Positions 40,189 to 47,436 of a stretch of DNA of 64,000 nt are shown here, piece after piece. Position numbers and translations under genes: made by a program. Under the pieces are notes generated by a model. It searched no databases. It worked only from the letters and a program-made list of their open reading frames with translations, and was not told the DNA's origin. The DNA is taken from assembly GCF_900104805.1 (NCBI RefSeq), contig NZ_LT629751.1, forward strand, positions 496,001 through 560,000, written 5' to 3'. The stretch is from Pseudomonas oryzae. Lineage in GTDB: Bacteria; Pseudomonadota; Gammaproteobacteria; Pseudomonadales; Pseudomonadaceae. How positions within the stretch are numbered: the first letter of the stretch is position 1; each line of letters starts with the position of its first letter.

Positions 40189-40640
40189 CTGATAGTGTCG
40201 AGATCTATACCGATGGCGCCTGCAAGGGCAATCCCGGTCCCGGTGGCTGGGGCGCCCTGCTGATCTACAAGGGCGTCGAGCGCGAGCTGTGGGGCGGCGA
40301 GCCCGACACCACCAACAATCGCATGGAGCTGACCGCGGCGATCCGTGCGCTGGAGATCCTCAATCGCCACTGCCGGGTGCAGCTGACCACCGACTCCGAG
40401 TATGTGATGAAGGGCATCAAGGAGTGGCTGCCGAACTGGAAGAAGCGCGGCTGGAAGACCGCGGCGCGCCAGCCGGTGAAGAATGCCGATCTCTGGCAGG
40501 CGCTGGATGCCCAGGTCAGTCGTCACGAGGTGCATTGGCACTGGGTGCGTGGGCACAATGGCCACCCCGGCAACGAGCGTGCCGATCAGTTGGCCAACCG
40601 CGGTGTGGCCGAGGTCAACGGCGCGCGCCGGGCCGTGTAA
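40185..40640 (+). CDS. rnhA: ribonuclease HI
   Basis: 151-residue RNase HI degrading RNA in RNA-DNA hybrids. All four carboxylates are present at the canonical positions Asp10, Glu48, Asp70 and Asp134, plus the [11 protein letters not shown] histidine loop. Coupled to the upstream methyltransferase by a 4-bp overlap. In related genomes dnaQ follows; here an accessory region begins instead. Confidence 0.97.
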
Positions 40641-41246
40641 GCCAGCCCTCTATTTTCTTGGATCCATTTGCAGGCCATTTCCCATGCGTTTTGTCATGTT
40701 GTTCTGCCCACTTGTCAGCAGTGTAAACGGGCATCGAGTGAGTGAGTGACAGGCCTCAAGGCTTGATGTAGTGGGGCTTTGCAGTCTAGGTGGGGGCTGA
40801 GTCTTGATTCCTCATGATGCCAAGGTGTAAACGGTGAGCTGTTTTGGGCCTCCACCGTTTACATCTTGAAATCAGGACGTGTTTGATGGGGCGAGACGCT
40901 GACCGCCGCTGTCTCAAGTCTCGACCAGATACAGCGAATCCCCAGAGAGGAGACCGAGGCGCTGCACTATGTCGGCAGACAGGTGCGAGGCAGGTATGTT
41001 ATCCCTGTCTGCGGTCGACTGATGGGCATGATTGCCTCTCGCTCACTGGTGGGCATGAGGTGTGCTCGGGGGCATGATGGCATTTCTTCAAGTTGCTGAA
41101 TTTTGAACTGGATGGCAGCTTTCGGCCAATAGCGGCCCTTGGCTGCGGGCGCGCGGTACGCGACTCGGTAGCGATACAGTCGAATCGCACCTACCATGAC
41201 GCACTAGAATCAGTAGATTGGTTTCCGCTAGACAAGGAGGGTCGAA
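40641..41246. other. 606-bp gene-poor junction between the core genome and the accessory region
   Basis: No credible coding sequence is seen. The stretch holds GTGTAAACGG at 40721-40730, a hairpin made of related sequence at 40822-40867, short repeats of GGGCATGA around 41020-41085, and the promoter/leader of the next gene with a strong AAGGAGG ribosome site at 41234-41240. It marks the point where rnhA-dnaQ synteny is lost. Confidence 0.7.
40822..40867. repeat. long inverted repeat with TGTAAACGGTG core
   Basis: AAGGTGTAAACGGTG (40822-40836) and CACCGTTTACATCTT (40853-40867) pair over 15 bp with one mismatch and a 16-nt loop. A third copy of GTGTAAACGG lies 100 bp upstream. Could be a transposable-element end, a protein-binding site or a terminator-like structure. 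Confidence 0.6.
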
Positions 41247-43118
41247 GTGCATCTTGTGCGTGTTCGCGTCCGGAACTTCAGAGGCATCGCCTACGGTGAG
41301 GTCCACCTCGATGGACACACTGCTTTTATCGGTGACAACAACGCCGGCAAGTCCACATTGCTGGAAGCGGTGGACTTGGTACTTGGCCCGGAGCGCCTGA
41401 GTCGTCGCCCTGTAATCGATGAGCACGATTTCTATGCCGGTACGTACGTAGACCCGGCCAAGAACGAGGTCGTCCCGATCCAGGTCGAGGTTATTGTCGC
41501 GGGACTCTCTGATGAGCAACTGCGGCATTTCCGGGACCATATCGAGTGGTGGGATACACAGACCAAGGCATTGCTTGTAGGGGCCCCCCCGGAGGGAACA
41601 GACGCGCCCCATGTCGGAGCGGCAATACGCGTCTTCTTCAACGGTTGGTATGACGTAGACGAGGACGACTTCGCTGGGGATACCTATTACGCCACTCCCG
41701 AAATGCCGGATGGCTCCTACCCCCGGTTCTCTGCGCCCGACAAACGAAAATGCGGTTTTCTTTATCTGCGCACGCTGCGGACCGGAGCTCGCGCACTCAG
41801 CCTGGAACGAGGCTCTTTGTTGGACGTGATCCTTCGGCTGAAGGAAACACGACTGACTATGTGGGAGGATTTGCTCGACCAGCTGAGGGCACTGCCAGTT
41901 GGAGAGACCGAGGACATCGGCGAATTGCTTGTCGCAGTCCAAGATGCAGTACGGCACTACGTACCATCCGACTGGGCAGAGCAACCCCACATGCGGGTTT
42001 CGGACCTCACTCGCGACATGCTCCGTCGAACCCTGACCGTCTTCATGGGTACTGGAGCGAAAAGGCCGGACGGCTCAGTCTATTCCGCCCCATATCAGCA
42101 CCAAGGCACTGGCACGATTAACACGCTGGTATTGGCTTTGCTTTCGATCATCGCCGAACTCAAGCAAAGCGTGATCTTCGCGATGGAAGAGCCAGAGATC
42201 GCGCTTCCGCCGCACACCCAGAAACGAATCATCAATTCGCTGCGCCAGAAGTCGGCACAGGCCATCTTCACCTCCCACTCACCGTACGTGCTGGAGGAGT
42301 TCGAGCCTGCCCAGGTAGTGGTTCTCAAGCGCACGGCCGGTGTTATGACCGGGGTTCCCGCTACATATCCGCCAGCAGTCAAGCCCAAGGCCTATCGCAC
42401 AGAATTCAAAGCACGGTTCTGCGAAGCCCTGCTGGCCCGCTACGTACTTGTACTTGAGGGCCGTACGGAGTTCGACGCATTGCCTGCCGCTGCCCGCCGG
42501 CTCGCCGAGCTGGATCCCACGCGATTCAAATCGCTCGAAAACCTAGGAGTGGCTATCGTCGACGCCCGCGGCGAGACCAATGTCGCGCCACTGGGTGCAT
42601 TCTTCCGCTCACTCGGCAAGGTCGTGTTCGCCGTATTTGACAAGCAAACGCCGGAGGCGCTCGCAACCATCACTGCCTCGGTCGATCATGCCTATGAGTC
42701 TGCGACTAAGGGCTTTGAAAACCTTGTCTTGTATGGTGCCTCTGAGGTGGCGCTCCGCAGCTATGCTGCTGTTGTGGTTGTTGGCGGTGATTGGCCGCAG
42801 CATCTCGCGGCATACACACCAACACCCGCAACGCCTCTGGCCAATCTGCAGGTAGCTCTGTCGCACTATTTTGGCTGGGCCAAAGGCGGTGGCGACGCCG
42901 GCGACTTGCTCGCCTCCTGTCCAACCGCCAATGACATGCCCGAATACGTGAGAACCACGCTGGCAGCCATCAAGAACGTCATTGAGCCACCTCAGCTGCC
43001 TCCATTACCTCCCCAGCTAGCCGGCGTGCCTCCTCTCCCAGAGGCTGCAACCAAGCCACCGCCATTGGCAGCAGCCTATGGGAAGTTCCAACCGTCCCCG
43101 CCCCAGCCTCTGGCATGA
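41247..43118 (+). CDS. gajA: Gabija-type GajA: OLD-family ATPase/TOPRIM nuclease
   Basis: 623 residues. N-terminal ABC-type ATPase with Walker A GDNNAGKS (29-36), Walker B IFAMEEPEIAL (about 310-320) and H-loop FTSHSPYVL (about 340); then a TOPRIM segment opened by VLVLEGRTE (about 400) and VAIVDARGETN (about 440). This is the OLD/GajA architecture of the Gabija antiphage system, where GajA nicks DNA when nucleotides are depleted. Starts at GTG 41247 with AAGGAGG 6 nt upstream. It overlaps the helicase gene by 4 bp (ATGA). Odd points: the usual D-x-D TOPRIM element reads VFDKQ, and the last 65 residues are very Pro-rich. Base composition is lower in GC than the core. Confidence 0.88.
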   Translation: MHLVRVRVRNFRGIAYGEVHLDGHTAFIGDNNAGKSTLLEAVDLVLGPERLSRRPVIDEHDFYAGTYVDPAKNEVVPIQVEVIVAGLSDEQLRHFRDHIEWWDTQTKALLVGAPPEGTDAPHVGAAIRVFFNGWYDVDEDDFAGDTYYATPEMPDGSYPRFSAPDKRKCGFLYLRTLRTGARALSLERGSLLDVILRLKETRLTMWEDLLDQLRALPVGETEDIGELLVAVQDAVRHYVPSDWAEQPHMRVSDLTRDMLRRTLTVFMGTGAKRPDGSVYSAPYQHQGTGTINTLVLALLSIIAELKQSVIFAMEEPEIALPPHTQKRIINSLRQKSAQAIFTSHSPYVLEEFEPAQVVVLKRTAGVMTGVPATYPPAVKPKAYRTEFKARFCEALLARYVLVLEGRTEFDALPAAARRLAELDPTRFKSLENLGVAIVDARGETNVAPLGAFFRSLGKVVFAVFDKQTPEALATITASVDHAYESATKGFENLVLYGASEVALRSYAAVVVVGGDWPQHLAAYTPTPATPLANLQVALSHYFGWAKGGGDAGDLLASCPTANDMPEYVRTTLAAIKNVIEPPQLPPLPPQLAGVPPLPEAATKPPPLAAAYGKFQPSPPQPLA

Positions 43119-44826
43119 CGGAAGTGTGGAGCGATCAGAAGCGCGGCTTCCTGGCGTGCGCCGGGCACACCTTGGCGCTAGGTGGTCCTGGTGCAGGCAA
43201 AACACACGTCGCGCTGGTCAAAGCTCGTGATGAGATTCGCTCAGGGGTACTCAAGCCAGGCCAGAAGATCCTCTTCTTGAGCTTCGCCAGGCCTACCGTA
43301 GCGCGCATCATCGAAAAGGCTTCTGAGCTGATTTCTCGCGAGGACCTGAAGCAACTTGAGGTCAGCACGTACCACGGTTTCGCTTGGAGCATTCTCCGAA
43401 GCCACGCCTATCTGTTGAATGGCAGGCCGAGCTTGCAGCTTCTGCCACCACCCGAGGCAGCAGCGCATTTGGCAGATATCGATAAGGCCCAGCACGAAAA
43501 TGAGAAGCGACGCCTATTCGAGCACGAGGGCCGCCTGCATTTCGACTTGTTCGCAAGCTTGGTCAGCGAACTGCTGAGCCGCAGTGACCGGCTAAGCGCC
43601 ATCTTCTCCGACGCCTATCCCATTATCATCCTCGACGAGTTTCAGGACACAAACAGTGATGAATGGGCTCTGATCCAGCAGCTTGGAAAGCGTAGTCGCC
43701 TCATTGCTCTGGCCGACCCTGAACAGCGGATCTATGAGTTTCGAGGCGCTGATCCTAGGCGGGTTGGCGAGTTTCTGGAGATCTTCGGCGCCGTCCACTT
43801 CGATTTCGCTGGTGAAAACCACCGCAGCAGCGGTACCGATATCACGACCTATGGGAATGACCTGCTCACTGGCGCAAACAAGGGCAAGGTCTATCAGCAG
43901 GTAAAAATCACGCGTTACGGCTTCATGTATGGAAAGAGCCTGCACTTCAATGCCAAGGCCGCAGTGCTCTCGGCGTTGGATCGTCTCAAGGCAATACCGG
44001 ACAAATCGATCGCGATCTTGGTGCCATCCAAGCGGCTGATGCTCGAGCTTTCTGATTACCTTTCTTCTGCAGCTGATGGTCTGCCAGAGCTACATCACGA
44101 CGTTGCAATGGATGCTGAACCGCCGGCTCTCGCCGCTGGCGTTATCGCCACGTTACTGGAGGGGGGGCGGCTGGCGATGTGGCGAGCCGCATGCTTGGTG
44201 CACTTCACTCGCACATTCGTGGACGCCGCGGAGGCAAGCCTACCCCCCAGTCCGAGCTGGACCTGGCAGGTGCTCTTAGCGGATTCCTCTCCTCGGGAAA
44301 GATCCGCGGTGCCAAACGCCAGCTGATTGTCAGCGAAGTTCAGCGTATCGCAGAGTTGCGGCAGCAACTGCAATTAACGGGCGACCCTGCGGAGGACTGG
44401 TTGCAGCTGCGCGGCCTGTTGCAATCATCCGCTGCGGTAGCCTTGAAGCAAGTAGCAACAGATGCTCGCTACCTTCGACTTCTTCATCGTGGCTCGGTAC
44501 TGCGGGCTAACTTGGGTGCGCTGTGGCGTGCCCAGGGAGAGTACAAGGGGGCTGAAGAAGCAGTCCGCAGTGCCTTGATGCAGGAGCATTTCGCTGCAGC
44601 TCAAAAGGACTGGCGCGGCATCCACCTAATGACGATACATAAGTCCAAAGGGAAGGAGTTCGACGAGGTCATCATCTACGACGGCCTATACCAGCGCATT
44701 GCCAAAGCCCCGCAGGATCCAAAAATCTGCGCTCAGGATCTTTTAGTGCTGCGGGTGGGAGTGACTCGGGCGATACGTCGAACCACCATTCTGACTCCGA
44801 AGCGCGATACCTGCCCTTTCCTGTGA
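43115..44826 (+). pseudogene. gajB: Gabija-type GajB: UvrD-like helicase split by a frameshift
   Basis: Two overlapping frames together encode one UvrD/PcrA-type superfamily 1 helicase of about 570 residues. The first (43115-44326) has motif I GGPGAGKTHVA, Q-like N terminus, motif II IILDEFQDT and motif III ALADPEQRIYEFRG. The second (through 44826) carries LMTIHKSKGKEFDEVI (motif V region) and RVGVTRAIRR (motif VI). The shift of -1 falls at or near a G7 run at 44161-44167; restoring one base there joins the frames cleanly. So all helicase motifs survive but no single frame contains them. Options: recent inactivation, phase-variable tract, ribosomal -1 slippage, or sequencing error. Coupled to gajA by ATGA. 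Confidence 0.83.
44161..44167 (+). repeat. G7 homopolymer at the gajB frameshift
   Basis: Seven consecutive G bases inside gajB, with a further GCGG after one C. The reading frame changes from that of the N-terminal half to that of the C-terminal half here, equivalent to loss of one base. Confidence 0.85.
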
Positions 44827-45055
44827 ATCAAGACGTCCCCTGCTTACACCTCTCCCTATTGATCCGGCCGCAGCTGAAAGCGGTCGTAGGCGCGCCTATC
44901 TGAAGAGGTAAAGAGCTTCTCAGTCTCAAAATTGCTAGCACAGAATGGTTCACGTTAAGTCCGCTTTTGGCCGATCTCTGCCGTTCCCCACCAGCAACCT
45001 CGGGTCGGATAGCGATGGTCTAGAGTCGACCGTCGCAGATAGGGGGCACACCTCA
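44827..45055. other. gap between gajB and the IS66 element
   Basis: No gene seen. It contains GCTTTTGGCCGATCTCTGCC around 44963-44982, a relative of GCTTTCGGCCAATAGCGGCC near 41118-41137 on the other side of the Gabija pair. Confidence 0.6.
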
Positions 45056-45157: not shown

Positions 45158-45490
45158 ATGCAGCGACGTTCTTATTCCAAGGCCTTCAAGGCGCAAGTCG
45201 TGCAGGAGTGCAGCCTGCCTGGCAACTCGGTTGCCAGCGTGGCTCTGAGCCACGGCATCAACACCAACGTGGTTCATCGATGGCGAAGACTGGCGGCGGC
45301 CTGCCCATCGTCGACCGAAACACTGCCCGCATTTCTCCCGGTGATGCTGGAGCCGCCCGCTCAATCGGTGGTTTCCAATCAGGCAGAGATCCGCATTGAG
45401 ATTCCCCATCGCCGCACGACCGTGACCATGCACTGGCCGGCGGCAGATGCCGAAGGCTGTGCCCGGTTCATGCGTGAGCTTTTGCAATGA
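45158..45490 (+). CDS. tnpA: IS66 TnpA (helix-turn-helix accessory protein)
   Basis: 110-residue protein with an N-terminal helix-turn-helix (YSKAFKAQVVQECSLPGNSV, then VASVALSHGINTNVVHRW). Needed with TnpB for IS66 transposition. Its stop overlaps the tnpB start by 4 bp (ATGA), implying coupled translation. Confidence 0.92.
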   Translation: MQRRSYSKAFKAQVVQECSLPGNSVASVALSHGINTNVVHRWRRLAAACPSSTETLPAFLPVMLEPPAQSVVSNQAEIRIEIPHRRTTVTMHWPAADAEGCARFMRELLQ

Positions 45491-45822
45491 TCCGCATTGA
45501 TCGCATCTGGCTGGCCACCGAACCTCTGGACATGCGCGCCGGAACGGAAACGGCTCTGGCCAGGGTGGTGGCGGTCTTCGGTGCGGCGCAGCCGCACTGC
45601 GCATATCTGTTCGCCAACAAGCGGGCCAACCGCATGAAGGTGCTGGTGCATGACGGCTTCGGCGTCTGGCTGGCCTCGCGCCGGCTGAATCAGGGCCGTT
45701 TTGTCTGGCCGGGCAACTGGCAGGGCACACAGATGGAGTTGAATCCCGAGCAACTTCAGGCGCTGGTGGTCGGACTGCCGTGGCAGCGGGTCGGTGCCGG
45801 AGCCGAAATCCGCCTTCTGTAG
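45487..45822 (+). CDS. tnpB: IS66 TnpB (Orf2) accessory protein
   Basis: 111-residue IS66 Orf2-like protein with the family core (PLDMRAGTETALA, YLFANKRANRMKVLVHDG and WLASRRLNQGRFVWP). The exact role in transposition is unknown but the gene is essential in studied elements. Starts within the end of tnpA. Confidence 0.92.
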   Translation: MIRIDRIWLATEPLDMRAGTETALARVVAVFGAAQPHCAYLFANKRANRMKVLVHDGFGVWLASRRLNQGRFVWPGNWQGTQMELNPEQLQALVVGLPWQRVGAGAEIRLL

Positions 45823-45903
45823 TGAGTCCTGCGGTGGTGCTTGCTGCGCAATTGACCGAACGACCTATCGTCGGTCGCCGTCGAGGCCGGCACAATCACG
45901 GCC

Positions 45904-47436
45904 ATGGCTTCTTCTGCTTTCGACCACCTCACTCCCGAGCAACTGCGCGTACTGGCGGCGCAGTTGACGGAGCGTGTCGCCAGCCTCGACCAGCAAGTCC
46001 AGTATCACCGGACGCGCAACGAGCAGCTGGCTCACGAGATTGCCATCCTCAAACGCCACAAGTTTGCCCGGCGCAGCGAGCAGCTCAGCCCTGACCAGAT
46101 CAGCCTGCTGGACGATCTGCTCGACACCGACATCGCGGCCATCGAGGCCGAACTCAAGGCGCTGAATCCCGCGCCGGCACCCGCCGAACCCCGCCAGCAA
46201 CCCAAGCGCACCGCCTTGCCGGCGCAGTTTCCGCGCACCCTGATCCATCACGAGCCGGATACCACGCAGTGTGCCTGCGGCTGTCAGCTCAAGCGCATCG
46301 GCGAGGATGTCAGCGAAAAGCTCGACTACACCCCGGGCGTCTTCACGGTGGAGCGGCATATCCGCGGCAAATGGGTCTGCGCGCAGTGCGAAACGCTGAT
46401 CCAGGCACCGGTACCGCCCCAGGTGATCGACAAGGGCATCCCGACCGCCGGCCTGCTGGCCCAGGTCATGGTGGCCAAGTACGCCGACCATCTGCCGCTG
46501 TACCGCCAGGAAAAGATCTTCGGCCGCGCTGGCCTGGCCATCCCGCGCTCGACCCTGGCGCAGTGGGTCGGCGGCTGTGGCGTACAGCTGCAACCGCTGG
46601 TCGATGCGCTGCGGGACATCGTGCTGGAACAGCGCATCGTCCATGCCGACGAAACCCCGGTGCAGATGCTGGCTCCGGGGATGATAAAGACCCAGCGCGC
46701 CTATGTCTGGGCCTACGTTCCCAGCCCGTTCGCTGATCTGCGTGCGGCGGTCTACGACTTCAGCCCCAGCCGTGCCGGCGAGCATGCCCGCGCCTTCCTG
46801 GGCGACTGGAAAGGCCAACTGGTCTGCGACGACTTCGCCGGCTACAAGGCCTGCTTCGAGCAGGGCGTGACCGAAATCGGCTGCATGGCCCATGCCCGCC
46901 GCAAGTTCTACGACCTGCATGTCGCCAACAAGAGCCAACTGGCCGAACAGGCCCTGCGCCACATCGGTCAGCTATACGACATCGAGCGCGAGGTACGCGA
47001 TCTGCTGCCCGATGAGCGACAGCGAATACGCCAGGAAAAAGCCAAGCCCATCGCCGCCGCCCTGCACACCTGGATGCTCGCCCAGCGCCAGTTGGTGCAC
47101 GAAGGCACGGCCATCGCCAAGGCGCTCGACTACAGCCTCAAGCGCTGGACGGCCCTGGTGCGCTATCTCGATGACGGCATGGTGGCCATCGACAACAACT
47201 GGTGCGAAAACCAGATCCGCCCGTGGGCCATCGGCCGCTCGAACTGGCTGTTCGCCGGCTCGCTACGCAGCGGCAAGCGTGCGGCTGCGCTGATGACGCT
47301 GATCCAGTCGGCGCGACTGAACGGGCATGATCCGTATGCCTACCTGAAGGACGTGCTGACTCGGCTACCGACGCAGAAGGCCAGTGAACTCAGCGAGCTG
47401 CTGCCGCACAACTGGATCCCCACCAGCAAGGTGTGA
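45904..47436 (+). CDS. tnpC: IS66 transposase TnpC
   Basis: 510-residue DDE transposase. N-terminal leucine-zipper-like region (about 20-60), zinc-finger-like CACGC...CAQC segment (about 120-160), then DDE catalytic core with HADETPVQML (Asp), LVCDDFAGYKACFEQG (Asp) and a C-terminal NNWCENQIRPWAIGR (Glu). Appears intact and full length. Confidence 0.95.
   Translation: MASSAFDHLTPEQLRVLAAQLTERVASLDQQVQYHRTRNEQLAHEIAILKRHKFARRSEQLSPDQISLLDDLLDTDIAAIEAELKALNPAPAPAEPRQQPKRTALPAQFPRTLIHHEPDTTQCACGCQLKRIGEDVSEKLDYTPGVFTVERHIRGKWVCAQCETLIQAPVPPQVIDKGIPTAGLLAQVMVAKYADHLPLYRQEKIFGRAGLAIPRSTLAQWVGGCGVQLQPLVDALRDIVLEQRIVHADETPVQMLAPGMIKTQRAYVWAYVPSPFADLRAAVYDFSPSRAGEHARAFLGDWKGQLVCDDFAGYKACFEQGVTEIGCMAHARRKFYDLHVANKSQLAEQALRHIGQLYDIEREVRDLLPDERQRIRQEKAKPIAAALHTWMLAQRQLVHEGTAIAKALDYSLKRWTALVRYLDDGMVAIDNNWCENQIRPWAIGRSNWLFAGSLRSGKRAAALMTLIQSARLNGHDPYAYLKDVLTRLPTQKASELSELLPHNWIPTSKV

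Follow-up and report, generated by a model that had tools for sequence, protein, structure and literature searches.

We analysed a Gabija defence locus, made up of the genes gajA and gajB, in a 64,000-nucleotide stretch of Pseudomonas oryzae DNA (assembly GCF_900104805.1, contig NZ_LT629751.1, positions 496,001 to 560,000, forward strand), here called the window, from whose start all coordinates are counted. In the explanation that we regard as probable, the locus was acquired horizontally and gajB has since been inactivated by the loss of one base at the 3' edge of an old run of seven G residues (G7). The break looks like ordinary recent decay rather than a built-in on/off switch, and, judged from sequence, the Gabija system is probably switched off in this strain.

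Gene content and the frame break

The upstream gene, gajA (41247-43118, plus strand), is intact. From a GTG start it encodes 623 amino acids (aa) with no internal stop in its own frame, and the product is an OLD-family ABC ATPase with a TOPRIM nuclease (Pfam AAA_15 and OLD-like_TOPRIM), the architecture of GajA proteins of about 580-620 aa; it aligns with positions 1-596 of the 600 in the PADLOC GajA profile PDLC00086 (E 1.8e-268). A UvrD-like helicase gene follows directly downstream, as in Gabija, with the gajB start lying inside the last four bases of gajA (a 4-base overlap). Its N-terminal open reading frame (ORF; 43115-44326, plus strand) specifies 403 aa, of which about 349 are GajB residues; an out-of-frame tail of about 54 residues follows and, with its stop, occupies 44168-44326 (plus strand). 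The rest of the gene is found in a C-terminal piece (44179-44826, plus strand) of 215 codons counted from a GTG, with an in-frame ATG at 44191, and this piece is in the -1 frame (offset 2 mod 3). The N-terminal ORF matches positions 3-358 of the 574 in the PADLOC GajB profile PDLC00104 (E 1.9e-156) and carries the Pfam UvrD-helicase domain, the N-terminal domain; the C-terminal piece matches positions 358-572 (E 3.2e-78) and carries UvrD_C. Between them the pieces cover positions 3-572, and both are free of internal stops in their respective frames. With the domain halves assigned by Pfam, we take the N-terminal piece to hold helicase motifs I-III and the C-terminal piece motifs V and VI; no single polypeptide with motifs I-VI is encoded, the two frames being offset by -1. 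The frames change at a G7 run (44161-44167, plus strand), read GAG GGG GGG CGG in the N-terminal ORF, with the break at its 3' edge. An initial annotation of this DNA had described gajB as split across two frames with all motifs surviving and the switch at this run, and both points are borne out. It had also proposed that either a slip of -1 or the loss of one base would link the frames: the slip would do so, by re-reading a base, and the loss would not, as the window is already one base short.

The order of gajA and then gajB, and the combination of an ATPase/TOPRIM nuclease with a UvrD-like helicase, are those of Gabija from Bacillus cereus VD045 and P. aeruginosa PA14 (by PADLOC and Pfam). 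Unlike in those systems, gajB of the window occupies two frames, and a working helicase is not expected. In sequence the locus is remote from solved Gabija: matches to the solved chains are weak (GajA E about 2e-4, GajB E about 1.3e-4), the N-terminal piece scores better against Rep, UvrD and PcrA than against solved GajB, and the C-terminal piece matched no helicase chain among the solved structures. A profile search of the genome found no second gajB, and complementation by such a gene was set aside on this ground. The remaining profile matches have E values of 2.9e-28 or worse; one of them is a full-length recB and the others are presumably of the UvrD/Rep type.

Comparison with unbroken relatives

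With the N-terminal piece as query, 20 loci were found in genome_contigs and one in viral_contigs, and in all 21 gajB reads through in one frame of 556-579 codons from the start of the match. We then aligned the DNA around the run with the nine best-aligned relatives. The gajB frame runs through in every one of them, and at least seven carry one extra base relative to the window, aligned at 44167-44168. The nearest three, on separate contigs, are L003 (Pseudomonas protegens FD6), L004 (Stutzerimonas stutzeri SD25545) and L027 (an IMG/VR contig), with about 99% DNA identity over the gene. In each of them gajB is an unbroken frame of 570 codons and the run counts seven G, as in the window; the window gene differs from them in length by a single gap, which leaves it one base shorter at the run's 3' edge. 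In a gene that is otherwise well conserved, one net shift confined to one place is far from chance.

Across the nine relatives the run measures 7, 7, 7, 6, 6, 3, 3, 3 and 3 G, and none has G8. Because the unbroken L003, L004 and L027 share G7 with the broken window and no aligned relative has eight, run length does not account for the difference in frame; on this alignment, the base missing from the window gajB does not come from the G run. The initial annotation had raised a change in the length of the run among its readings and had named G8 in all homologues, together with G8 on resequencing of the strain, as the mark of an assembly error; the aligned relatives speak against the first and do not show G8.

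Horizontal transfer of the cassette

The locus forms part of a 3.9-kb cassette (41116-44982). P. protegens and S. stutzeri carry loci about 98% identical to it, although their genomes share only 77-78% identity with that of the window over one 5-kb core stretch. This disparity across genera indicates that the cassette was transferred horizontally. In L003, L004 and L027 the cassette has the same gene order and the same ends as in the window at that level of identity over 41116-44982, whereas gajB is unbroken there and the flanks are unrelated. In six contigs (the window, L003, L004, L005, L014 and L027) the similarity ends at or close to the same points, which are marked by short inverted repeats, and no flank matches the flank of another of these loci. 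Between the ends, gajA and gajB are the only genes identified. At the left end (41122-41137, plus strand) stands TCGGCCAATAGCGGCC, and at the right end (44959-44974, minus strand) its inverted counterpart TCGGCCAAAAGCGGAC. The end motif, TCGGCCAAWAGCGGMC, has three exact copies in the genome, two of which form the oppositely oriented ends of the cassette; in L005, the copy at the right end failed a two-mismatch scan. Sites similar to the cassette ends occur in 90 stretches of viral_contigs, and the ends may therefore be a common target of recombination or insertion. The locus may be a mobile defence cassette that is moved in trans at a palindromic site of common occurrence.

In L004 the cassette is flanked directly by perfect inverted copies of 148 bases (100% identity), as though an insertion element stood exactly against each of its ends, and in L003 the flanks hold a 288-base stretch that is inverted-repeated at 81%. 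Next to the cassette in the window lie genes of an IS66-type element (45158-47436, plus strand), with Pfam matches to HTH_Tnp_1 (45158-45490), TnpB_IS66 (45487-45822) and DDE_Tnp_IS66 (45904-47436). Both are held in an insertion of about 36 kb that runs from an RNase H gene (ending at 40640) to the next conserved gene 12.8 kb beyond the window (genome positions 536640 to about 572760); a sister species, G006, has less than 0.1 kb at this site.

Survey of Gabija loci

To place the break among related loci, we compared the window and 40 others (20 from genome_contigs, 1 viral, 14 from plasmids and 5 from other genomes) with GajA and both GajB pieces. The tally excludes plasmid hits H4, H5 and those after H16, as well as the partial match G199, and gajA was not judged in L010, where most of it is absent as the contig ends. 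Of the 40 other loci, 38 have both gajB pieces in a single uninterrupted frame, and at least one of the two genes is broken in 7 of the 41, the gajA of L010 being unjudged. Both exceptions for gajB also have a damaged gajA. In L201 (genome G730), the aligned reading of gajB meets a TAG at about codon 332 and gajA is interrupted by roughly 0.85 kb; in L200 (Sinorhizobium meliloti plasmid pSme442-208), gajB breaks near residues 71-76 and gajA changes frame. In total gajA is broken or cut in six loci: by a stop in L006, by frame changes in L022, L200 and L210, by the interruption in L201, and in L094 (P. aeruginosa plasmid pF068), where gajA matches only from residue 235 and annotated IS21-type (ISPst3) transposase genes lie just upstream. 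Like the window, these six have one or both genes broken; unlike it, they carry a stop, frame change or insertion at other sites, and gajA is hit in all six, whereas in the window only gajB is. Some of the broken loci may likewise be assembly errors.

Several further features of these loci were recorded. The gajB break of L201 falls in the same middle stretch as that of the window (codon about 332 versus about 349), a nearness that may be chance. In L094, gajB adjoins two annotated integrases. In L214 (Robbsia andropogonis plasmid p3, 1162-4740), gajA and gajB share a continuous open frame that bears the annotation of one 3579-base helicase gene, and from this frame they appear to be a natural GajA-GajB fusion.

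A gajB of this kind, at E 1e-70 or better, was found in 8 of 398 sampled genomes of the family, that of the window included. The broken allele has no exact match in viral_contigs, and in phage records no Gabija match reached 60% identity, the ten matches listed lying at 24-33%. Broken defence genes have been met in other surveys too (PMC11514479, PMC12322248); two surveys of Streptococcus thermophilus report restriction-modification genes with frameshifts and leave systems that contain pseudogenes out of their counts.

Substitutions and frame census

Codon differences between the window and L003 are mainly synonymous (synonymous/nonsynonymous: gajA 23/4, gajB N-terminal piece 7/2, C-terminal piece 8/1), as are the codons found in the window alone when six sequences are compared (11/3, 4/1 and 1/0, respectively). 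By these small numbers there is no sign of spreading decay in gajA or in either gajB piece. With changes mainly synonymous and decay not yet spread, the break is either recent or not real.

As a proxy for the error rate of the assembly, we compared 400 kb of the window's genome with the corresponding 400 kb of G006. A strict DNA census admitted gene-like frames of G006 at 75% identity or more with at least 12 mismatches, at least 60% of these at codon position 3, and yielded 134 frames (122.8 kb), some of which may be antisense shadow frames; 12 further frames covered to less than 80% were left out. Nine frames were flagged in the window's genome and four in the reverse direction. In seven of the nine (64, 88, 642, 649, 685, 835 and 897) the gaps lie outside the gene, either upstream of the real start or intergenic. 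At frame 1080 the window's genome agrees with a third species, G003, and at frame 701 it is G006 that is two bases shorter; the frame of the window's genome, which has no G003 match there, was judged sound by eye from codon positions. None of the nine is thus a proven break inside a gene of the window's genome. Two other censuses carry no weight here. One based on coding potential (460 kb, 136 candidates) was discarded, its candidates apparently being mostly antisense shadows and gene junctions, with the gajB break itself not listed. A protein census against G006 matched 111 of 241 model genes at 75% identity or more: 101 of them over their full length in a single frame, 8 only in part, which were left unjudged, and 2 with a flag (reverse direction, 2 of 110 flagged); it was not relied on owing to contamination by shadow frames, with 12 of the 101 full-length frames having stops in the window's genome.

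Alternative explanations

The most serious alternative, though an unlikely one, is that the strain has an unbroken gajB and that the gap is a consensus mistake of assembly or base calling at a G-rich spot. A single one-base gap bordering a G7 run, in a gene that is otherwise well preserved and whose two pieces show substitutions that look purifying, is what such a mistake would leave. A typical homopolymer error would, however, alter the G count, and the window has the same seven G as its unbroken relatives; the census contains no proven break in its 134 frames, and the assembly, 4.64 Mb in a single contig, has a completeness rating of 100%. Because the G count is unchanged and the census free of proven breaks, we favour a real mutation over the base-calling error raised by the initial annotation. 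Several observations nevertheless weigh against inactivation by decay, this possible error among them. Both gajB pieces still look selected, as expected if the break is an error or the protein is still made; the window-specific changes are so few that the selection test has little power; and the 41 loci are not independent, with the window, L003, L004 and L027 near-identical and L005 and L014 likewise. G GGG GGG is, moreover, a formally perfect -1 slippery heptamer in the right frame, and some full-length GajB may be made.

This heptamer (GAG GGG GGG at 44159-44167, in the X XXY YYZ register) underlies several readings in which GajB is not lost. Programmed -1 slippage as a conserved device is disfavoured. 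Nearly all other loci read gajB in one frame (38 of 40, as above), the seven-G run is absent in six of the nine aligned relatives (although L016 among these keeps G GGG GGC, formally also slippery), and the same heptamer stands in the same frame in the unbroken L003, L004 and L027, where a slip would destroy the product. Downstream, the 93 bases at 44168-44260 fold no better than chance (z 0.35, with 126 of 200 shuffles folding as well or better, in a model that does not cover pseudoknots). An accidental rescue, in which slippage at the in-frame heptamer yields a little full-length GajB and leaves the locus weakened rather than dead, we consider improbable. In its favour stand the register of the heptamer and a viral gene with a G7 run in which, according to a review, frameshifting at a very low level supplies sufficient product once an indel has arisen (PMC5009743); the same missing fold and unconserved run, present also in unbroken relatives, speak against it. 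RNA polymerase slippage on the G run is unlikely as well, because in E. coli and Buchnera all run-associated insertions are reported to have fallen in A or T runs (PMC5574713). We give still less credence to the idea that a low-rate -1 slip driven by G7 is tolerated or even favoured, supplying a trickle of full-length GajB over a truncated pool perhaps still able to bind GajA; the indel would then have created a dose-limited defence out of a Gabija that is normally strong and potentially self-harmful. Reversible switching of gajB by changes in G-run length is very improbable, and slightly more so. A G7 run does lie at the frame break, and runs of at least seven G or C are uncommon but present (22 in 400 kb of the window's genome). 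Seven G is short, however, for a phase-variation switch, run length explains the frame in none of the nine aligned relatives, and switching would require that the observed change be followed by another within the run. Excerpts of the literature on Gabija with phase variation, frameshift or pseudogenes mention no phase-variable Gabija or gajB frame switch. The least credible reading is a split helicase, with the C-terminal piece translated separately from GTG 44179 or ATG 44191 and the two pieces assembling. GGAGG at 44158-44162, 16 bases before the GTG, resembles a ribosome-binding site; against this, a two-piece gajB that looks designed occurs in none of the 40 other loci, the two without a single frame being broken elsewhere and in gajA also, and L214 even has both genes in one open frame. 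The initial annotation had offered phase-variable control and programmed slippage beside recent decay. The first two are disfavoured by the comparison of run and heptamer, whereas recent decay is supported by the alignment of relatives, the codon changes, the absence of stops and the 7 broken loci among 41.

Discussion

The structural and genetic work on Gabija, which confers phage resistance as a 4:4 GajA-GajB complex, suggests what the broken gajB would do. In the solved structure, GajB attaches to GajA tetramers by its helicase 1B subdomain, and defence by B. cereus Gabija depends on the complex being formed (PMC10781630); in P. aeruginosa PA14, both genes and the ATPase residues of GajB are required, according to a preprint (PMC12407980). 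The statement of the initial annotation that Gabija needs GajA and GajB in most tests is therefore upheld for these two systems. In the window, the ribosome would yield a 403-aa truncated GajB comprising the ATP-binding half (motifs I-III) without motifs V and VI. This product would probably keep the part that docks on GajA, could not act as a helicase, and would leave a GajA-GajB complex giving little or no phage defence. The broken allele appears young, and it is probably carried because loss of Gabija is cheap, or was briefly favoured, when its phages are absent. Loss of RecBCD, which according to the same preprint makes Gabija harmful, was also considered, but a full-length recB is present (of recBCD, only recB was checked).

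What the initial annotation observed is thus partly confirmed and its interpretation partly supported; a switch based on the G run is not supported. The window locus belongs to a known system, of which it is an ordinary member that was broken recently. It offers a clean example of the speed at which one gene of a defence system can be lost after transfer, and it shows that a frame break located at a homopolymer is not necessarily caused by it. It also cautions that annotation by profiles may take such a locus for a functional Gabija, as both gajB pieces score highly against the GajB profile. Low-level slippage, if true, would make the locus a naturally occurring example of a defence system whose output is set by errors of translation.

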